This document shows, piece by piece, positions 1 through 9,077 of a stretch of 64,000 nt of DNA. Every line of letters starts with the position of its first letter. The first letter of the stretch is position 1. Source of the DNA: Sulfurisoma sediminicola (lineage in GTDB: Bacteria; Pseudomonadota; Gammaproteobacteria; Burkholderiales; Rhodocyclaceae); NCBI RefSeq assembly GCF_003865015.1, contig NZ_BHVV01000006.1, positions 62,001 to 126,000 of the forward strand, written 5' to 3'. The notes beneath the pieces were generated by a model. It did not search any database. It had not been told where the DNA came from and worked only from the letters and a program-made list of their open reading frames with translations. Position numbers and translations under genes: made by a program.

Positions 1-489
1 AATGGTCAGGCGTTCACCGGCCCTGCCGATCCCGGTCAGCCGCGCCCCCTTCTGGCCCCGCGCTCGCGCGGCCATCTCGTCCCAAAACGCGACGACCTCG
101 TCGCTTATCCCGTAGGCGAGGCCGGCCTCGACGAACACTTGGGCGATGTCGGAGCCCGCGAATGCGAGCACTCGGGCACGCCCGAAGGTCGCATTCTGTA
201 TCCAAGAGGGCCGAACCGTGTCGATATAGTCAAGCAACGCGCGGCGCAGCCTCGGCTCGTAGCCGCGCAGATCGACGAGTCTCGCGCCGCCGGGCGTCAG
301 GACGACGGTCCCGTCCTCGCTGGCTCGAAGCCAGTCGAGCGTCTGCGCCGTATCGACGACCCTGGCCGCCGGCATGCCACCGAGCCTAGCGAACTCGATC
401 GAGATTTGTCCGAATTGCAGCGCCCGACGTCCCGCCATTTCCAGCAGGTCGAAGCATCCCTGCGCGAGCCCCGGGGAAAACGCGATCAT
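1..489 (-). CDS. unknown protein of the restriction-like operon (5' part; runs off the window)
   Basis: This open frame starts with ATG at 489 and stays open to base 1, so 163 residues are visible and the C-terminus lies outside the window. The ATG overlaps the TGA of the upstream helicase gene (ATGA, 489-486), which indicates translational coupling in the same operon. The visible part looks helical. A segment reading DWLRASEDGTVVLTPGGARL (about residues 52-71) looks like a winged-helix wing, and GRAGERL near the edge resembles the linker that precedes C-terminal nuclease-like or DUF3883-type domains in some defence proteins. That resemblance is an inference. I cannot name the family. Its position makes it likely to be a working component of the methyltransferase/nuclease/ParB/helicase system. 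Confidence 0.7.
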   Translation of the reverse strand, partial: MIAFSPGLAQGCFDLLEMAGRRALQFGQISIEFARLGGMPAARVVDTAQTLDWLRASEDGTVVLTPGGARLVDLRGYEPRLRRALLDYIDTVRPSWIQNATFGRARVLAFAGSDIAQVFVEAGLAYGISDEVVAFWDEMAARARGQKGARLTGIGRAGERLTI

Positions 490-2318
490 CGACGAACCCC
501 GGCGAAATCCCGCAGCAGGACGTCGATGTCCTCTCGTGCAAGCCCGGTGCTGTATTCGTCAGCGTCCTCAATGTCGGTCGGGTCAAGGGCGATCGGATCC
601 GGTTTGAGCGACGAGTCTTCGAGGGCCTCGGCCATCTGGCCGATCTTGTATCCGAGACGCTCGCGGACCGTCTCGTCGACACTGTCCATGCATTCGACAA
701 TTTCGATCGTGGTGTCCTGGTCTGGCGGCAGGCCGAAGCGATGGATGCGGTCCTCCGATTGCAGGTAGTGAGCAGCATTGAAGGTCCGGTCGAGATACAG
801 GGCATGGTGGCAGACGCGATGAAGGCTCACGCCCTCGCCGGCTGCTGCCGGATTCGCCACCATCACGCGCGTATTCGGGTCGTCATGGAATAGTTTGATC
901 TTGCCCTCGCGGGTCTCATCGTCCTCCTCGTCGCCGGCGTCGACGCCGCCGTGGATGAACACGGCACCGAGATCGGACAGTCGCGCCGAGATGTATTCGA
1001 CGTTACGCACGAACGAGGACCAAACGAGAACCTTGCGGCCCTCGCGGGCGAGGGCCCTAGCCCTCTTCAGGACATATTTGAGCTTGGGCCCATCACCCTC
1101 CGCCAACACCGCAGCGAGCAGGTCGGGATGGGCGAAGCCAATCTCCGAGGAGAGCAGGGACGGATTTGAGACGAACTGCAACAACCGTGCGACAGAGCGC
1201 CCAAGGGACCGAAAAGCCTGCCGGCTCGGGATGCTCAACGCTGTGGCCGCCTCTCGGGCGACCTCGAACTTCATCAGCTTATAGAGTTCTGCCTGCATCG
1301 GCGCCATAGACAGGCGGGCCATCTGTCGCGTTACCGGCGGCAGGCCAAGTTCCGCCTTGTTCGTGCGCACATACACGGGGCGGATGAGTTCGACAACATT
1401 GTCGGCGGTCGCGGGTATCTCCGGGTAAAGGAACTGGAATTGCGGGACGAGATCCTCCGTCGACTGCGGCATCGGAGTTCCGGACATAATGAGTTTGCCG
1501 ACCGGAAGGTGGGAGAGGTTCAGCGCGGCACGGGCCGTCATCTTCCCAGAGCCGCTCTTGATCCGGTGGCTCTCGTCTAAAAAAACATGGACCCTGCGCC
1601 GAGCGCAATGGGCCGCGAGAAGATCGGGGACCCGCGCAAGTTGCTGGTAGGAGATAAGCATGAAGCGGGGCTCGTCGTCCAAGGCGCGCGCGATCTTGTC
1701 CCTACCTCCACGCAACCGGACAAAGACGTCATCGACACCCGGCATGCAGTCAGCGATCTGTTCGTCCCACGCGGCAAATGCGTTCTTCGGGGCCACGACG
1801 AGAAGATCCTCCTCGGGGCGAGCCCTGTAAAAGAAGCACGCGAGGGCCTCGGTGGTCTTGCCAGCCCCGGGGACGGAGAATGTCGCCGCGGCTGGCAGCG
1901 CGGCGATCCTGCCGACATTGCGCGCTTGCTCTGGGGAGAGTTCCCGGCCGAACCCGATTTCTCGCAGACGGGCGCGAAGATCGCCCTCGGGGACCGCGAG
2001 GGCGTTCTTGGCTGCCTCATGAGAATCGACGGCCCGCCTGGACTGGCGTAGCAGGGCCGAGGCAGCGTCCGAAACGACGATATCCCTGCCGGGGGCCAAG
2101 CCGTAGCCACCAAAGATTTGGAACAGGTGGGGACGCAAGGCCGCGAAGCCCCACCACGGCAACGAAATACGCCACGCGTCCTCCTGCGAGGCGTCCTCCG
2201 ATCGGTCGAATACGAGGCGCCGTAGCGCGTCGAGCCAATCGGCGCGCTCGTCGTCAGCGTCCCATGAAAGGCACGCCCGCCGATCGGATTCCCGATAGTC
2301 AATCCTTAGCATGCTCAT
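486..2318 (-). CDS. SNF2-type DEAD/H-box helicase of the restriction-like operon
   Basis: This 610-residue superfamily 2 helicase/translocase probably moves along double-stranded DNA using ATP. Visible motifs are Walker A SVPGAGKTT (about 148-156), a DESH box (about 248-251) inside VFLDESHRIKSG, motif III MSGTP (about 278-282), and a C-terminal helicase domain with VWSSF, HGG and the motif VI region EDRIHRFG. The DESH/HRFG pattern is typical of SNF2/RapA-like enzymes. I chose the start at 2318 (MSMLRIDY). It overlaps the end of the ParB-like gene by about 20 bases, and ATG 2312 is equally possible. A helicase fused into a methyltransferase/nuclease operon suggests DNA translocation or remodelling during restriction, as SNF2 proteins do in DISARM and type I/III systems. 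This role is inferred. Confidence 0.9.
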   Translation of the reverse strand: MSMLRIDYRESDRRACLSWDADDERADWLDALRRLVFDRSEDASQEDAWRISLPWWGFAALRPHLFQIFGGYGLAPGRDIVVSDAASALLRQSRRAVDSHEAAKNALAVPEGDLRARLREIGFGRELSPEQARNVGRIAALPAAATFSVPGAGKTTEALACFFYRARPEEDLLVVAPKNAFAAWDEQIADCMPGVDDVFVRLRGGRDKIARALDDEPRFMLISYQQLARVPDLLAAHCARRRVHVFLDESHRIKSGSGKMTARAALNLSHLPVGKLIMSGTPMPQSTEDLVPQFQFLYPEIPATADNVVELIRPVYVRTNKAELGLPPVTRQMARLSMAPMQAELYKLMKFEVAREAATALSIPSRQAFRSLGRSVARLLQFVSNPSLLSSEIGFAHPDLLAAVLAEGDGPKLKYVLKRARALAREGRKVLVWSSFVRNVEYISARLSDLGAVFIHGGVDAGDEEDDETREGKIKLFHDDPNTRVMVANPAAAGEGVSLHRVCHHALYLDRTFNAAHYLQSEDRIHRFGLPPDQDTTIEIVECMDSVDETVRERLGYKIGQMAEALEDSSLKPDPIALDPTDIEDADEYSTGLAREDIDVLLRDFAGVRR

Positions 2319-3609
2319 CCAAGTACGCGCGGATGCGCCCGACCTGGCCGGTGATCGCATCCAACTGCCTTGCCACGCCAGCGCGTTTCGACTCCGGGCG
2401 CAGGCCCTCCTTCACCGCGGCAGCCAGTTGCGCGTGGGCCTTGGTGCAGCAGTCCAGCAGGTAGCCGGCGTTCTTCGAGTCCTTTTTGAGTTGCCGTTGG
2501 CTCTCGATTTCCTCGACGATGATCCTGCGGGCCTTGTCCGAATTCTCAGGCTTCTGGATTTCCTTTGCGAGGGGAATCTTGTCTTCCTCACCACTCGGCT
2601 GCCCGCCCCCGAACAAGTCGCCCAGCGACTCCGGGATATCGCCCGCTGCGACCGGAAACTCGTCGCCGAGTTTCTCCACTATGGAGTCGAGATATTGCTG
2701 CATGTAGTTGATCGCGTCGTGGAGGCTGTCGCCGACCTCCCCGGGATTGTCCAGCAGGGCGAACGCCGCGTGCTTGAACAGTTCCTGCGAACCGACGCCG
2801 GAAATCTTCTGGCGCGAAGTCACGATTCGACGGAACGCCAGTTCGTCCCCGGATACAGAAGACCACATGTCTGCCTTGGCGCGCGAGCGCAAATACTCGT
2901 CCGCGTAGGAGCGCATGTCGAACAACTGCTGAACGTCGGATTCCTTCATCCCGTATAGGTCGGCGAGTTCCTTGTTGGAGAATCCGTCGCGTTTCTGCTT
3001 GTCGAGCAGCATGTTCGCCTGTGCATCCCAGCTGTAATCGGCCTTGATGTCCTTCTGGATTTGGAGCATCGCCTCGATCCGGTCGATCTCCCTCTCGTCG
3101 CAATGGGGGAGCATCGCGACGTCGATGTGGCGGTAGTGGCCGTATTTGTCTGGATCTTGGTGATACAACTCCCGCCAGCAGGACAGACGACGGTTCCCGT
3201 TGACGACGAACCCGCGCTCATCGAGGAGGATCGGGTCGATCTGCCTGTTGTCCGTATCCTCGAAGTATTTCTGCAAGTCCTGCTGCCGGGCCACTAGGAG
3301 GAGCAGAGTGTGCTGGACCTCCTGCGCGTCCCAAAGCTCCGCATCGCCAGAGAACAGGTCGTGGCGAACCTTGGGATTCTTCGCTAGATACTCGGCTTGG
3401 AGAGAGGCGGTCCGGCCGTTCGCCATCCGGTATTTCGGCAGTTCTATCGGAACCCTGACTATGCCGATGTCCGTGTTCCTCCCCTGGAACGGAACGCGGT
3501 GCGTCGCATTGGGTGGGACGGAATACAGTTGGCGCAGTTCCTCGCAGCGCCTGTTCTGCTGCCATCCGAACCGGGTGGTGGCGGGGGGGGGCGTCGACGA
3601 ATCGGTCAT
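2299..3609 (-). CDS. ParB/Srx-like domain protein
   Basis: This is a 436-residue protein. The N-terminal half contains IDPILLDERG followed by NGNRRL (about residues 137-142), the GxxR-type signature of ParB/Srx nucleotide-binding domains. KELADLYGMKESDVQQLFDM (about 215-240) looks like the helix-turn-helix that follows ParB domains. The C-terminal part is charged and helical. ParB-type folds act as CTP/ATP-dependent DNA clamps, and some prokaryotic members belong to DNA-modification or defence clusters. I chose ATG 3609 because GGAG lies five bases upstream; GTG 3615 overlaps the TGA of the nuclease gene and is an alternative. It sits between nuclease and helicase in one coupled operon. It is not a chromosome partition parB: there is no parA, and no parS site is visible nearby. 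Confidence 0.85.
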   Translation of the reverse strand: MTDSSTPPPATTRFGWQQNRRCEELRQLYSVPPNATHRVPFQGRNTDIGIVRVPIELPKYRMANGRTASLQAEYLAKNPKVRHDLFSGDAELWDAQEVQHTLLLLVARQQDLQKYFEDTDNRQIDPILLDERGFVVNGNRRLSCWRELYHQDPDKYGHYRHIDVAMLPHCDEREIDRIEAMLQIQKDIKADYSWDAQANMLLDKQKRDGFSNKELADLYGMKESDVQQLFDMRSYADEYLRSRAKADMWSSVSGDELAFRRIVTSRQKISGVGSQELFKHAAFALLDNPGEVGDSLHDAINYMQQYLDSIVEKLGDEFPVAAGDIPESLGDLFGGGQPSGEEDKIPLAKEIQKPENSDKARRIIVEEIESQRQLKKDSKNAGYLLDCCTKAHAQLAAAVKEGLRPESKRAGVARQLDAITGQVGRIRAYLDEHAKD

Positions 3610-3611
3610 GG

Positions 3612-4067
3612 TCACTCCAACGAAAACACGAGGGTAGGAACGGAATAGGCAAGTTTGAAGATTTCAAGCTCGCGCACCAAGCGATGAGCATTGGCAATGT
3701 TGTCGCCGAGCGTCTTCGCAACAGGACGGGAGGGGACGACCACGATCGCTGCCTTGATCGCCTTGTTCAGATACATGGTTTGCAGTTTGAGCAGGTCCGC
3801 ATACATGCGCCCCATGTTGCCAGTCTGCAAGCAGAGTCCGATTTCGTCCTTGGTCGAGGTGACGGTCATCTTCGAGTTCTTGGAGAGTTGAACCTCGGCA
3901 GGCCACCCGGACTCCTGGATTCCCTTGAGGAAGGCATCGCGCACCTTGGTCGTAGCCCCTTTAGCCGGCTTGACCCCGACGGCGGTAATTGCCGCGGCGA
4001 CCTCCCGTTGGACGACCTCCGGGACGGCATCAGATCCGCCCTCGTGGCTGTATGTGATGTGCTTCAT
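3612..4067 (-). CDS. BglII/BstYI-like restriction endonuclease family protein
   Basis: This 151-residue protein resembles the BglII/BstYI restriction endonuclease family around residues 74-100. The stretch has D74, then LCLQTGN (78-84), MYADLLKLQ (88-96) and a hydrophobic IKAAIVVVPS strand. In BglII-type enzymes the metal site is Asp, then Glu-x-Gln. Here the Gln (Q81) is present but the residue expected to be Glu is C79. The protein is also shorter than BglII (about 220 residues). Its ATG overlaps the TGA of the methyltransferase gene (ATGA), so the two are translationally coupled like a classical restriction-modification pair. Cleavage activity is uncertain because of the Cys substitution. 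Alternatively it may be a non-cleaving recognition subunit working with the helicase. Confidence 0.75.
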   Translation of the reverse strand: MKHITYSHEGGSDAVPEVVQREVAAAITAVGVKPAKGATTKVRDAFLKGIQESGWPAEVQLSKNSKMTVTSTKDEIGLCLQTGNMGRMYADLLKLQTMYLNKAIKAAIVVVPSRPVAKTLGDNIANAHRLVRELEIFKLAYSVPTLVFSLE

Positions 4068-4990
4068 TTCAGATCGTCCTTCGCCCACGCCTCCGGGGCC
4101 AGCGATAATTTGCTGCGTGTGTGGTCGTAGATCGGTTTGTCGTGGGGACGAAATTTGGCGTTCCCGTCCAGCGCGTCTTGCAAACGGGACAGTCCGGTTT
4201 TCGCGTACGCATCACCGATCTCACAGCCGACGAAACGACGGCCGTGGAGGGCGGCGGCGACGCCGGACGAGGCGACGCCAGCGAACGGGTCGAACACCAG
4301 CGCACTGGGCTCGGACAGCGAAAGGACGAGCCGTTCGATCAGACCGACGGGAAACTGGCAGGGGTGGTCGGTCTTCTCGACATGGTTGCTCTTGACGTTC
4401 GGGATACTCCAAACGTCCTCCGGGTTGACGCTCCAAACGTCCTCGGGGTTCTTGCCCATCGGGTTGCCCGACGGCTGGCCGGCGTTTGGCCCCTTGAAGT
4501 GCTTCTTGCCCGGATACTTCGCCGGCACGCGGACGGCGTCGAGGTGGAAGACGTAGTCGTCGCTCTTCGTATACCACATCACGGTCTCATAGCGCCCCGA
4601 GAAGCGGCGCTTGTTGTGCAAGCCGTGGCCGAAGTGCCAGATGATCCGGTTGCGCAGCTGGAGGCCGTGCTTCTTGAAGATCGGCGCGAACTCGATGTCA
4701 AGCGGGGCAATCTGCCCGTTGTCGACGAAGTTGCCAACCTGCCAGCAAAGGCTACCCGTGTCCTTCAAGCGCGGGATCATCAGGTCGATGATCCGCTCCT
4801 GCCATTCGAGATACTTTTCGAGAGCCTTCTTGTTCTCGTACGACTTGCCGATGTTGTAGGGGGGCGACGAGACGATTAGGTCGAAGATCGGCTCGCTCGG
4901 CAAGGCGGCGAGGAACTTCTCGACGTCGCCGTTCCAGATCGCGAAGCCCGGAAGAGTCGTCGGCAAGCCCTTCTTCCGGGGGCGCAGCAT
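4064..4990 (-). CDS. site-specific DNA methyltransferase (SPPY type, beta order)
   Basis: This 308-residue S-adenosylmethionine-dependent DNA methyltransferase carries the catalytic motif IV SPPY at residues 42-45, followed late by the AdoMet motif I DPFAG (234-238). That order is beta class, and SPPY is typical of N4-cytosine methylation, although N6-adenine enzymes of the N4/N6 family cannot be excluded. It is the first gene of the coupled operon and would protect host DNA from the nuclease encoded next. GTG 4993 is adjacent and also possible as a start. Oddly, the heptapeptide NPEDVWS occurs twice in tandem (about residues 180-195) because of a 24-bp near-perfect duplication. Confidence 0.92.
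   Translation of the reverse strand: MLRPRKKGLPTTLPGFAIWNGDVEKFLAALPSEPIFDLIVSSPPYNIGKSYENKKALEKYLEWQERIIDLMIPRLKDTGSLCWQVGNFVDNGQIAPLDIEFAPIFKKHGLQLRNRIIWHFGHGLHNKRRFSGRYETVMWYTKSDDYVFHLDAVRVPAKYPGKKHFKGPNAGQPSGNPMGKNPEDVWSVNPEDVWSIPNVKSNHVEKTDHPCQFPVGLIERLVLSLSEPSALVFDPFAGVASSGVAAALHGRRFVGCEIGDAYAKTGLSRLQDALDGNAKFRPHDKPIYDHTRSKLSLAPEAWAKDDLK
4407..4454 (-). repeat. 24-bp tandem near-duplication inside the methyltransferase gene
   Basis: Two adjacent 24-base units (4407-4430 and 4431-4454) begin identically with CTCCAAACGTCCTC and differ only near their ends. They encode a repeated NPEDVWS in the methyltransferase and keep the reading frame. Confidence 0.85.
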
Positions 4991-5113
4991 CACGGCCTTT
5001 TCCGCTTTGTCCGACTTCCCATCGACGGCGGGAACAACTGCGTTCTTGTCCTTCGTCGTTGATCGGCTTGGGTTTCCACTCGCTGGGGCCGACTTGAACG
5101 CACCCCCCCGTCC

Positions 5114-5323
5114 TTATTGGTTGATCTTGACACGAGCACCGCGGCCCCCTTTCTTCGTCGCTAGCGGCATCTCGACCTCGTGGCGCTTGTAATAGTCAGA
5201 AACCAAGCATTCGAGAGCGTTGACCATGCTGCGGTTTTCGCGCTCCGCGATGCCCTTCAATGCGAGCTTGGTTCCGGGGGAGACGCGCAGGTTCAGCGTT
5301 TCCGTCTTCAATTCCTTGGTCAT
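5114..5323 (-). CDS. ribbon-helix-helix (Arc/CopG-like) regulator
   Basis: This 69-residue basic protein has an N-terminal strand ETLNLRVSP followed by two predicted helices (TKLALKGIAERENRS, then MVNALECLVSDYYKRHEV), the ribbon-helix-helix pattern of Arc/CopG-type DNA-binding proteins. A strong ribosome binding site, GGGGAGA, lies a few bases before the ATG at 5323. It is encoded 120 bases upstream of the methyltransferase on the same strand, so it is a good candidate to control the operon, like controller proteins of restriction systems, although those are usually HTH rather than RHH. An antitoxin role is another option, but no toxin gene is adjacent. The tail KKGGRGARVKINQ is basic and may contact DNA. 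Confidence 0.75.
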   Translation of the reverse strand: MTKELKTETLNLRVSPGTKLALKGIAERENRSMVNALECLVSDYYKRHEVEMPLATKKGGRGARVKINQ

Positions 5324-5907
5324 TCCGTCTCCCCGGTAATGCGCAGCATTTGTCTGTGCAATTGCTTAATCGCGTAGCATACCATTTGCTGCGACCTCCG
5401 GCCGACCGAATCACGCGATGTTCTGAAACATGTGACATTCCGGAATGATTTCCACCTCAGCTACCGCTACGCTGCGATTGGGAACTTGCGAAGTAGCGTA
5501 TCGAGTGACTGCTGCGTTGGGGCATACGCGACTGTCTCTTGATCGCTGTGAGCGGAAGTCCCCCACCGCCCAACAGCCGTCATCGGAACGATCGGATCAC
5601 TCAAGTTTCCTCCGTATGGCTTACGTGTGCATGTCGGTCTCTGCTGACCCTTGGACGCCACCACGTGCTTTGGCGGTGTACCGGCTAGAAGGCAAGCGTG
5701 ACGACGCTTGGTGTGCGTTCGACCAGACCAGTCGCGACATTGACCAGCAAAAGGACGAATTACCGGGAAGATAGGGCTCCGACTGGAACAACACGTCGAG
5801 CGCGACGCGCTTTTTGTGCTGCGCTGGACGCTCCAATGAGCCAAAATACGCATTTTGCCGCGAAGACATGTACGCGGGATGGACGCATAGCGGATTCGGG
5901 AGTGCCC
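5324..5907. other. 584-bp divergent intergenic region without a confident gene
   Basis: This gap separates the minus-strand restriction-like operon from the plus-strand ATPase/PIN pair, so it should hold promoters for both. A perfect 12-bp palindrome, CATTCCGGAATG, lies at 5436-5447. Short open frames exist on both strands, for example 5445-5774 plus, but their translations show no domain and lack good ribosome sites. I therefore do not call a gene here. Confidence 0.5.
5436..5447. promoter_or_regulatory. 12-bp perfect palindrome, possible operator
   Basis: CATTCCGGAATG reads the same on both strands. It lies about 115 bases upstream of the ribbon-helix-helix gene start. RHH proteins bind short palindromes, so an autoregulatory site is plausible, but only the palindrome is actually seen. 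Confidence 0.35.
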
Positions 5908-7179
5908 ATGATTACGTCGTTGCAGTTGAAAGACTGGAAAAGCTTCGAACAGGCCACGCTGCATGTCGACCCTGTGACGGTGCTGATTGGCGCCAACGCC
6001 AGCGGTAAGTCGAATGCCCTCGATGCCCTATCGTTCCTGAACCGCATTGCAAATGGCGCGATGTTGACCGCGGCGCTTCAGGGCGATACCGGCTTGCCAG
6101 CCCTGCGCGGTGGCACGGAATGGGCAGCGCGCAAGCCGGGCAATATGTTCTTGCTGCATGCGACTATCCGCGCCGAGGATACGACCGACTACGAGTACAC
6201 CGTCGAATGCCGGGTCAGCGACAACCGTTGCGACCTCGTCGCCGAACAGCTTACCCGCGTCAAGTACCGGATCGACAAGCACAACGTGCGCAAGTCTGAG
6301 GTTGGGCGCATCAAGCTCTACCGTACCGATGCTTGCGGCAACGATTCGCCGACCATCGTTGCCCGTCTGTACAACGAGAAGCAGGGCACGCCGCGCCAGC
6401 TTGGCCGCGGTCACGCGGTGCTGTTCCAACTTGTCGGCCAGAAGCTGCGCCAGGAAATCCAAGATGGCGTAGCTGCTGTGGCCAACGCCCTGCGCGGCAT
6501 CTTCATCCTTGACCCGATTCCCTCGCACATGCGCGGCTATTCGTCGTTGTCCGACAAGCTCGAACCCGACGCCCGCAATATTGCCGGCGTAATCGCTGCA
6601 CTGCCGAAGGAAAAGAAGAAGGAAATCGAAACCACGCTGACGCGCTACGCGAGCCGATTGCCGGAGCGCGACATTCGTCGCGTCTATGCCGAGACTGTCG
6701 GCAAATTCAAGACCGACGCCATGCTCTACTGCGAGGAACACTGGCGCGATGTCGGTGAGCCGCCAACCGTAGATGCGCGCGGCATGTCAGATGGAACGCT
6801 GCGCTTCCTCGCGATCCTAACCGCGCTGCTGACGCGGCCGGCCGGTAGCCTGTTGGTGGTTGAGGAAGTCGATAACGGTCTGCATCCATCGCGAGCGAGG
6901 CTGATGTTGGAAATGCTCAGGGGTGTCGGCGGCAAGCGCGGTGTCGATGTGCTGGTGACAACCCACAACCCCGCATTGCTTGATGCGATGGGCATGGCGA
7001 TGGTGCCTTTCATTGCAGTCGCGCACCGCGACCCGGCGAGCGGGTTTTCCGTCTTGACGCTCCTAGAGGAAATCGCTCAGTTGCCCAAGCTTCTGGCCCA
7101 AGGGCCGGTAGGCAGGATTTCGAGCCAGGGCATGATCGAAGACACGCTGGAAAAGCAGGCAGCCGAGGCGCATTCGTGA
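5908..7179 (+). CDS. ABC/AAA_21-type ATPase of an ATPase-PIN pair
   Basis: This 423-residue ATPase belongs to the RecF/OLD-like AAA_15/AAA_21 group. It has a complete ABC-type site: Walker A GANASGKS (28-35), signature MSDGTLR (293-299), Walker B with catalytic glutamates LLVVEEVD (315-322) and an H-loop TTHN (351-354). I chose ATG 5908 because GGGAG lies at 5898-5902 and the protein then begins MITSLQLKDWKSF, the usual first strand of this family; the longer upstream frame has no ribosome site. The next gene, a PIN-like nuclease, overlaps its stop codon (GTGA). ATPases of this group act in several two-gene phage defence systems (Septu, PARIS, Gabija-like) as sensors that release or activate a partner nuclease. 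That role here is inferred. Confidence 0.92.
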   Translation: MITSLQLKDWKSFEQATLHVDPVTVLIGANASGKSNALDALSFLNRIANGAMLTAALQGDTGLPALRGGTEWAARKPGNMFLLHATIRAEDTTDYEYTVECRVSDNRCDLVAEQLTRVKYRIDKHNVRKSEVGRIKLYRTDACGNDSPTIVARLYNEKQGTPRQLGRGHAVLFQLVGQKLRQEIQDGVAAVANALRGIFILDPIPSHMRGYSSLSDKLEPDARNIAGVIAALPKEKKKEIETTLTRYASRLPERDIRRVYAETVGKFKTDAMLYCEEHWRDVGEPPTVDARGMSDGTLRFLAILTALLTRPAGSLLVVEEVDNGLHPSRARLMLEMLRGVGGKRGVDVLVTTHNPALLDAMGMAMVPFIAVAHRDPASGFSVLTLLEEIAQLPKLLAQGPVGRISSQGMIEDTLEKQAAEAHS

Positions 7180-7685
7180 GCCGGAAGGTTTTGATCCTCG
7201 ACACGTCCGTGCTTTGCTGTTGGCTGCAGGTTCCCGGCAAGGAAACCGCGGGGCCAGCCGACGACCTTTGGGATCATGCGCGCATTGCACAATTGCTCGC
7301 CGAGGAGCGACAGAACGGCAGTACTTTCGTACTGCCGATGGCGACGCTGATCGAAACCGGCAACCACATAGCCCAAGCACGGGCACACCGTTTCAAGTGC
7401 GCAAATGCACTCGCTGCGCATTTGCGCGATGCCGCAAACGCCAGCACGCCTTGGGCAGCATTCACTGATCAATCACCGTTGTGGGAAGCTGCCAATCTGC
7501 GTACTCTCGCAGGGACGTGGCCCAAAATGGCTAGGGGTGGCATGTCCATCGGCGATGCGACGATAAAAGACGTAGCCGAATACTACGCGCAGGGCGGTAT
7601 TTCGGTAGAAATCCTGACCGGCGATGCCGGCCTCAAAGCCTACGAACCGGCTAGGCCCGTGCAGATCCCGCGCCGCCGCCGTTAG
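7176..7685 (+). CDS. PIN-like nuclease domain protein, partner of the ATPase
   Basis: This 169-residue protein looks like a PIN-fold ribonuclease with all four expected acidic residues: D9 in LILDTSVL, E60 in LIETGNHI, D127 in SIGDATIKD and D150 in ILTGDAGL. The start is GTG 7176, whose bases overlap the ATPase stop (GTGA), so the two proteins are probably made in fixed ratio. The C-terminus is basic (IPRRRR). A PIN nuclease tied to an AAA_21 ATPase suggests an abortive-infection or toxin-like module in which the ATPase senses infection and the PIN protein cuts RNA. I do not recognise a named system with exactly this pair. Confidence 0.82.
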   Translation: MSRKVLILDTSVLCCWLQVPGKETAGPADDLWDHARIAQLLAEERQNGSTFVLPMATLIETGNHIAQARAHRFKCANALAAHLRDAANASTPWAAFTDQSPLWEAANLRTLAGTWPKMARGGMSIGDATIKDVAEYYAQGGISVEILTGDAGLKAYEPARPVQIPRRRR

Positions 7686-7926: not shown

Positions 7927-8961
7927 TCATCCGAGCTTCCGCGCGAGCTTCTCGGCCTGCAGATGCGTATAGCGCTTGAGCATTTGCAAGGTCTTGTGGC
8001 CGCTGACCGCAGCCATTTCCAACACGGAAAAATCCCCTCGTTCCGCCAAGCGGGACAATGCCTCATGCCTCAGATCGTGCCAGGTGAAGTCGGATATCTT
8101 GGCGCGTTCCAAAGCGCGCCGGTAAGAGCTCCAGAGCGTCGGGGCGGCAATCGGTATGACGCGGCCACCGATCGCGCGCGGCAGCGCCTCCAAGGTCGCC
8201 ATCGCGGTACTCGACAACGGCACGGCGCGCGGTTCCTGGTTCTTGATCTTGTCTGGATCGAGCAGCATGGCGAGGCGGCGTTGCTTGTCGATATGTTGCC
8301 ACTCCAACTGCAGCAGTTCGCCCCGCCGCATCGCCGTCTCGACAGCGAGCGCCAGGGCAGGGGCCAGCCAAGGATTTCCGCTGGCCTTGCACTCGGCTTC
8401 GAGGCGAGCCCATTCATCGGCGGTCAAGCGGCGGTTGCGAGACCGCGATCCCTTGGGTATGCGGATCTGCCGTACCGGGTTCCCGGCCGGAAGCGGTATG
8501 CCGAACTCTTTTTGCCCGACATCCAGCACCTTCGACAGCAGATCGAGCTCGCCCTTGACCGTTGCTGACGAGATGCGCGGCGCGGATTTGGCGTCCTTAT
8601 AGGCTTTGCATGGGTCGCGGAGCCGATCATCTCGATACTTTGCGAGCACCTGCGGGGTGATGGCCACCAGGGAATAATCGCCCAGGCGAGCACGCAAGGC
8701 GGTGAGCTTGCTTTGCCAGCCGCCAGCTCGATAATGATACGGAGCGAAGTCTTTTTCGAAGGCCGTGGCCAAGTCCTTGAACGTGGTGCCTTCGGCCCGC
8801 GCGGCAGAGATAAAACCGCCTCGATCCATTTCGGATTCGATTTTCCGAGCCCATGTGCGGGCGTCCAGCTGCAAGGGAAAGGTGCGGGACTGCGATGGAT
8901 GGCCCTTGCGACGGATGACGGCCTGCCAGCGGCCGGTTTTGAGTTGAGTGATCGTTGCCAT
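7927..8961 (-). CDS. tyrosine site-specific recombinase (phage-type integrase)
   Basis: This 344-residue integrase inserts and excises the island. An N-terminal SAM-like/Arm domain (MATITQLKTGRWQAVIRRKG) is followed by a core-binding region and the catalytic domain. The tetrad is visible: R212 in TAMRRGE, H295 and R298 in HDLRH, H322 in SGHKT and nucleophile Y331 in KRYTHL. I start it at ATG 8961 because GGGAGA lies just upstream; the longer frame from 9000 has no ribosome site. It lies beside a truncated tRNA-Ser gene, the usual target of this family. It is not an integron integrase: the IntI-specific extra helix region is not apparent, and the nearest cassette array is over 20 kb away. Confidence 0.95.
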   Translation of the reverse strand: MATITQLKTGRWQAVIRRKGHPSQSRTFPLQLDARTWARKIESEMDRGGFISAARAEGTTFKDLATAFEKDFAPYHYRAGGWQSKLTALRARLGDYSLVAITPQVLAKYRDDRLRDPCKAYKDAKSAPRISSATVKGELDLLSKVLDVGQKEFGIPLPAGNPVRQIRIPKGSRSRNRRLTADEWARLEAECKASGNPWLAPALALAVETAMRRGELLQLEWQHIDKQRRLAMLLDPDKIKNQEPRAVPLSSTAMATLEALPRAIGGRVIPIAAPTLWSSYRRALERAKISDFTWHDLRHEALSRLAERGDFSVLEMAAVSGHKTLQMLKRYTHLQAEKLARKLG

Positions 8962-9077
8962 TGAACTTCTCCCGAGAGGTGCACTGTCGTGAAAATGCAA
9001 CCGTAGGGGTTTTCAATTAACCGCGTATGGCTGAAAACCCGCATGGTTGGCGCGTTTCTCGGGCAAAATTGCACGGG

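Follow-up and report, generated by a model that had tools for sequence, protein, structure and literature searches.

The CglI and NgoAVII restriction-modification (R-M) systems require ATP hydrolysis for cleavage, and their R-protein, which binds the site, stimulates a separate ATPase (PMC4267653). In other R-M operons, DUF3883 has been called a restriction endonuclease (REase) domain and is fused to an SNF2 helicase (PMC3710099). Here we describe an operon of five minus-strand genes at one end of a 64,000-nucleotide stretch of the Sulfurisoma sediminicola genome (the window; contig NZ_BHVV01000006.1, positions 62,001 to 126,000), which encodes a DNA methyltransferase (MTase), a BglII-like protein, a ParB-like protein, an SNF2 helicase, and a DUF3883 protein. 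We consider it fairly probable that the operon specifies an ATP-dependent, multisubunit R-M system in which a dead REase is the sensor, the ParB-like protein a switch or clamp, the SNF2 protein the motor, and the DUF3883 protein the nuclease.

The five open reading frames (ORFs) were confirmed and are as tightly coupled as a preliminary description of the window had them, with ATGA, GTGA, and ATGA junctions that can be read directly. The first gene (4064..4993) encodes a beta-class amino MTase (N4-cytosine or N6-adenine) with SPPY and DPFAG motifs (Pfam N6_N4_Mtase, 1e-47; PADLOC MTase_II, 8e-74), the predicted self-protection enzyme. An ATGA overlap (4067-4064) joins it to the gene for the BglII/BamHI-fold protein (3612..4067; 151 amino acids from ATG 4067), the predicted site-recognition subunit, and a GTGA overlap (3615-3612) leads into the gene for the ParB-like protein (2299..3615; 438 amino acids), with an alternative ATG six bases into that gene. 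The ParB-like protein carries an NGNRR box and a C-terminal coiled region and is a predicted nucleoside triphosphate (NTP)-dependent clamp or switch. The helicase start had been placed about 20 bases after the ParB-like gene; the ParB-like ORF runs to 2299 and thus includes both candidate ATGs (2318 and 2312), so that the two genes overlap by 14 to 20 bases. The helicase/translocase itself (486..2318; about 610 amino acids, without a fused nuclease) matches Pfam SNF2-rel_dom (6e-16) and Helicase_C (8e-6), and Walker A, DESH, and motif VI are all kept in its alignment, the signature of an SNF2-family superfamily 2 (SF2) translocase. A last ATGA overlap (489-486) connects it to the fifth gene, of which the window holds the 5' part (1..489), the remainder lying beyond the window edge.

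PADLOC identified the first protein as a type II MTase and, weakly, the second as a type II REase; its matches to the SNF2 protein were all partial overlaps with helicase domains, the ParB-like protein had no match of any kind, and no NCBIfam model scored above its cut-off for any operon protein. We dropped SPPY as proof of N4-cytosine methylation because motif IV of N4-methylcytosine type III enzymes is given as DPPY/F (PMC8259958).

The BglII-like protein appears to have kept the fold of its family while its catalytic acids were replaced. It matches Pfam Endonuc-BglII (PF09195, 2e-7) and, weakly, BamHI; the PDB entry closest to its AlphaFold model (predicted local distance difference test [pLDDT], 75) is BglII (1es8; E = 1.8e-5, TMq 0.72), followed by OkrAI and BamHI. 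The family named in the preliminary description is upheld by these matches; the word "nuclease" attached to it is not. Catalytic residues of this family are D94, E111, and E113 in BamHI and D84, E93, and Q95 in BglII. When the protein was aligned by profile to solved enzymes, its LCLQTGN segment fell on LEWETGN of OkrAI and IEVQFGK of BstYI, whose Glu we take to be catalytic in the BglII/BamHI family. Six operon copies have Cys at this Glu position and two (L010 and L031) have Gln, all eight have Thr, Ala, or Phe where BstYI has Asp119, and no acid is conserved among the eight at the substituted positions. The PD...(E)xQ/E acids of type II BglII/BamHI REases are absent, then, from 8/8 operon copies. 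All of these copies keep the asparagine of the TGN segment, which is consistent with retained DNA reading.

For the closer pairs, the ratio of nonsynonymous to synonymous substitution rates (dN/dS) was 0.05 to 0.09 for the BglII-like gene, 0.04 to 0.07 for the ParB-like gene (leaving out the L010-L031 pair), and 0.06 to 0.09 for the helicase gene. Because its dN/dS is low, like that of its neighbors, the BglII-like gene is, as far as these sequences tell, under purifying selection and not decaying. Its product is probably not a nuclease. Designed pentatricopeptide repeats, which came up among the PDB profile matches, were rejected as repeat artifacts.

Relatives of the operon were sought by searching the contigs of 84,980 species for the ParB-like protein with a pattern-based method that finds close relatives only, and further loci came from profile searches of whole genomes; loci were found through similarity to the ParB-like protein or the helicase, not to the MTase. 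The contig search gave four alphaproteobacterial loci (L002 to L005), from a Nitratireductor metagenome-assembled genome (MAG), a Rhizobiales isolate, a Sphingomonas MAG, and Aurantimonas manganoxydans. All four have the BglII-like (52 to 53% identity to the window), ParB-like (53 to 57%), SNF2 (62 to 66%), and DUF3883 (45 to 47%) genes in the window order. They lack the amino-MTase and have instead a convergent C5-cytosine MTase, which ends beside the DUF3883 gene in L002, L003, and L005 and lies some 0.6 kb farther away in L004. This C5-MTase (L002:11961-13586; L005:11994-13619, minus strand) has a C-terminal extension of about 200 amino acids that is without a Pfam match and is conserved across the four loci.

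The complete five-gene set was found in the same order in a genome from the same taxonomic order (G312; L029), in a genome from another class (G918; L031), and on a Paracoccus denitrificans megaplasmid (L010). The window shares the amino-MTase with these three loci, at 75% identity in G312 and 58% in Paracoccus. The window gene order is thus repeated in seven other loci, three with all five genes and four with genes 2 to 5, and this recurrence indicates that the arrangement is more than chance. Close forms are scarce, turning up in roughly one of every 400 genomes at each rank sampled, and no relatives were found in the viral contigs and phage genomes searched. That the set recurs across orders, a class boundary, and plasmids agrees with the earlier proposal of one coupled machine rather than a plain type II pair.

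The same loci bear on whether the first two genes are simply a type II R-M pair whose BglII-like nuclease has diverged but is still active, with the ParB-like, SNF2, and DUF3883 genes as fellow-travelling accessory genes of separate function. The MTase and BglII-like genes do lie side by side and overlap, like those of type II pairs, and the fold is BglII-like. However, both catalytic acids have been replaced in every copy, with no acid conserved there, and in the four alphaproteobacterial loci the BglII-like gene stays with the ParB-SNF2-DUF3883 genes while the MTase has been replaced and moved. Because this linkage survives MTase replacement, the BglII-like gene is part of the core rather than a partner of the MTase, and we regard the type II explanation as quite unlikely.

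A different protein fills the BglII-like slot in more distant ParB-SNF2-DUF3883 operons, which lie on plasmids of Azospirillum, Kozakia, Rhizobium ruizarguesonis, and Mesorhizobium (the DUF3883 domain was confirmed in three of the four). These slot proteins align with one another at 57 to 67% identity, and those of two operons match PADLOC type II REase family PDLC03501 (1e-18 and 4e-19). Copies outside the operon read HDY...I(E/D)xKG, and the four operon copies read TVY or TIY and IIQKG or VIQKG, with both acids gone. We compared 12 copies from outside the operon, seven from annotated plasmids next to a C5-MTase and five from other genomes. HDY and the acid at the E of ExK are present in all 12, and the Lys is present too in 11 (K to N in one). 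Intact acids were therefore found in 12/12 copies outside the operon versus 0/4 inside, among copies that are not phylogenetically independent. Judged by these alignments, the operon slot has taken two unrelated REase families, both disarmed, and PDLC03501 is an independent second case.

The helicase tree (17 rows) places the four loci with a C5-MTase on one well-supported branch inside the BglII-type clade. Each REase type forms one group in this tree, indicating one recruitment per family in the present sample. ParB-SNF2-DUF3883 would be the conserved core, with the predicted recognition subunit and the MTase as interchangeable cassettes; the swapping of families is itself observed.

On the R. 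ruizarguesonis plasmid, a further PDLC03501 copy with intact catalytic residues (455 bits) lies beside a C5-MTase gene upstream of the operon. Such a neighbor could mean that the dead REase acts as a decoy or a controller, binding target sites and blocking or timing cleavage, the motor and nuclease recognizing their sites otherwise, and dead but conserved REase paralogues could indeed shield sites. The window operon, however, encodes no other candidate recognition subunit, and on the Kozakia plasmid (L045:6676-7534 with L012:599-5493) the stand-alone REase has been split into two short ORFs, whereas its C5-MTase is intact, as is the operon that carries the inactivated homologue. We think a controller or decoy role very unlikely.

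The fifth protein, which had been left as unknown, is the likely nuclease. Its full gene (292 amino acids; G000:C6:61611-62489, or L006:9611-10489) matches Pfam NOV_C/DUF3883 at 2e-9. In an alignment of 13 diverse copies (the window, L002 to L005, L029, L031, L010, L032, L011, L013, L030, and Streptomyces), the only invariant columns are G154, E158, G184-Y185-D186, E202-x-K204, E220, and W265 (alignment numbering). The invariant GxxxE, GYD, and ExK motifs amount to a PD-(D/E)XK signature at the sequence level, and we propose that this protein is likely the active nuclease of the operon. In Exiguobacterium (L016:6852-9488), a PLD nuclease domain is fused N-terminally to the SNF2 protein behind the ParB-like gene; the nuclease module, too, appears exchangeable.

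The ParB/Srx assignment of the third protein is moderately supported by its motifs and by the annotation of its relatives. The ParB/Srx fold binds CTP, ATP, or GTP (PMC12704722). A [D/N]GNRR box, the counterpart of GERR, is present in all of the ParB-like relatives compared (disregarding the L032 row) except Streptomyces, which has GNTRR, and an N-x-R box lies upstream of it in the alignment. NCBI annotates two relatives as ParB/RepB/Spo0J, and hhalign aligned the ParB-like profile to canonical ParB with an E value of 5e-4 but a probability of 32%. A Pfam search with the protein gave no match, and Pfam and PDB sequence searches with its profile gave chance matches only. The assignment made in the preliminary description thus keeps its box, its annotated relatives, and a modest profile match and lacks a Pfam hit. 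A role as clamp or switch is what we would expect of such a protein.

The wider ParB-SNF2 family comprises 19 loci in our sample. The preliminary description had reasoned that its proposal would fail if homologues of the ParB-like and helicase genes occurred mainly without the MTase and nuclease pair. This turned out to be half the case: a BglII-like protein is found in 8/19 loci, yet a DNA MTase lies within about 10 kb in 17/19 (counted by hand from locus tables), and the slot holds the second inactivated REase in four. Core loci without any REase-like protein also exist. G614 (L030) has the ParB-like/SNF2 pair with DUF3883 and a D12 adenine MTase, G1030 (L032) has the pair with DUF3883 and an amino-MTase 50% identical to that of the window, and Streptomyces (L015) has the pair with DUF3883 alone and no nearby MTase. 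A related pair sits directly behind type III Mod/Res genes on a Lactococcus plasmid (L018:1486-9500) and behind a type III Res-like ORF on a Lactiplantibacillus plasmid (L017:4174-9599), where it resembles an accessory that was added to an active ATP-dependent R-M system.

These loci would suit an autonomous defense module in which ParB-SNF2-DUF3883 responds to a cue other than missing methylation (replication forks, for instance) and is tuned or restrained by the dead REase and the MTase. The frequency of nearby MTases across the family and the head-to-tail overlap of all five window genes argue against such a module, which we consider unlikely.

Divergent from the REase-less operon of G1030 lie Methyltransf_35 and a GHKL-type (HATPase_c_3) ATPase (L032:5780-8160, minus strand), possibly an alternative sensor module. 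An R. leguminosarum plasmid (L019:7962-11577) has genes for an SNF2-like helicase, a ParB-like protein, and a DGQHR (DndB-like) protein in a row, in reversed order, with no MTase seen. Two unrelated genomes encode ParB-AAA_15/21 fusions of 724 to 731 amino acids (L034:6295-9336 and L035:5890-8984, both minus strand) followed by similar-looking partner ORFs, possibly an OLD-like defense pair.

For the window operon, we infer a defense function in which the steps would follow in this order. The MTase would mark the host's own sites. The catalysis-less BglII/BamHI-like protein would serve as the sensor, reading the unmodified site, which by homology may be a GATC-centered palindrome such as RGATCY. 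Binding to the site would load or license both the ParB-like protein and the SNF2 motor; the motor would then translocate, and the DUF3883 PD-(D/E)XK protein would cut the DNA. The preliminary description had likened the operon to the translocating logic of type I/III systems or DISARM, a likeness we share and extend to CglI. Palindrome counts in 91 kb of the host genome (AGATCT rank 13 of 64, GGATCC rank 21) are uninformative about a GATC-type target.

Several points weigh against this R-M reading. No member of such a system is known. The alignment to the BglII family is remote: PDB sequences match at E values of about 1e-3 to 1e-2 and the Pfam model at 2e-7. It is possible that the active site has been rebuilt from other residues, though no acid is kept at the substituted positions. 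The helicase tree is compatible with a single origin of the BglII slot, in which case the eight copies stand for few independent events. The ParB assignment is weak when judged by sequence, and the AlphaFold2 model of that protein is poor (pLDDT 47). The core loci of G614, G1030, and Streptomyces imply that the sensor is not universal and that another site reader acts there, and for R. ruizarguesonis and Kozakia the MTase may chiefly be part of the stand-alone R-M pair.

As the preliminary description had suspected, no named counterpart of the set came to light in PADLOC-DB 2023, NCBIfam, or the open-access papers searched (REBASE, subscription papers, and newer DefenseFinder models lay outside this scope), and those papers gave no account of ParB with SNF2 and DUF3883, of BglII with SNF2, or of an inactive REase with ATP-dependent restriction. 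The operon may be a variant of ATP-dependent R-M; that it forms a class of its own is a real possibility. Such a class would have a ParB-SNF2-DUF3883 core that repeatedly recruited unrelated type II REases, disarmed as interchangeable sensors, and a ParB-type nucleotide clamp would connect the reading of unmethylated sites with a motor and a separate nuclease; we advance this fuller proposal tentatively, at somewhat less than even odds. Were it true, REases would have been recycled as interchangeable recognition subunits of an ATP-driven nuclease, joining type II specificity to type I-like action. ParB-like proteins would gain a concrete job in defense, the NTP-switch idea would reach beyond chromosome segregation, and annotated type II nucleases and orphan ParB and DUF3883 proteins would need to be read again. 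The parallel loss of catalytic acids in two families makes the idea directly testable.

The surroundings of the operon also point to defense. Divergent from it, an AAA_21 ATPase and a 169-amino-acid partner (5698-7685, plus strand) match the PADLOC candidate system PDC-M07A/B (3e-169 and 1e-50), and an integrase (7927-9000, minus strand) lies near that pair; together with the operon, they make up a defense island. Upstream of the MTase gene, a small protein of 69 amino acids (5114..5323, minus strand), without a match in a Pfam scan and ribbon-helix-helix-like by eye, is a tentative part of the operon and a possible controller. In two stand-alone R-M relatives, a CopG regulator occupies the equivalent position ahead of the C5-MTase. 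The operon is flanked on its other side, just left of the window, by a 2,015-amino-acid NTPase with AAA_22/AAA_16-type (weak NACHT) matches (L006:945-6992, plus strand), a DUF4238 protein (L006:7068-8162, minus strand), and a 346-amino-acid protein without a Pfam match (L006:8263-9303, plus strand).

Among known systems, type I and III R-M likewise pair an ATP-driven translocase with a nuclease guarded by methylation, but Pfam, PADLOC, and NCBIfam found no HsdS/M/R or Mod/Res in the operon, where recognition apparently falls to a type II-derived protein. Class 1 DISARM (DrmD SNF2 helicase plus MTase) resembles it in combining an MTase with an SNF2-type helicase. The window helicase, however, scores far below the DrmD cut-off (25.7 versus 610 bits), DrmA, DrmB (DUF1998), and DrmC (PLD) are not in the operon, and the sole Drm match was a short, low-scoring helicase-domain overlap. 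The BREX-related (DUF499) R-M systems with SNF2-DUF3883 (PMC3710099, PMC12839542) share an SNF2 helicase, a DUF3883/REase nuclease, and an MTase with the window operon, which differs from them in having no DUF499/BrxC ATPase, in encoding DUF3883 as a separate gene, and in adding a ParB-like protein and a dead type II REase. The type II systems of BglII, BamHI, OkrAI, and BstYI have a beta-class MTase next to a BglII-fold protein, and conservation extends to the TGN segment that follows the catalytic strand. As in those systems, the operon has a cognate MTase, here an overlapping amino-MTase and in the four alphaproteobacterial loci a convergent C5-MTase; unlike them, it has the catalytic Glu and Asp replaced, the extra ParB-like, SNF2, and DUF3883 proteins, and an exchangeable MTase. 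In CglI and NgoAVII (PMC4267653), the site reader (B3) carries a PLD nuclease and the ATPase is of the DEAD-Z1 type, whereas the operon has a dead REase, a separate DUF3883 protein, and an added ParB-like protein, and Pfam found neither PLD, B3, nor Z1 in its products. Because the defining subunits are absent, the operon is not a member of CglI/NgoAVII, DISARM, or type I/III, yet CglI and NgoAVII, with a type II-like MTase, a site-binding protein, and a separate SF2 ATPase, are its closest functional analogues.

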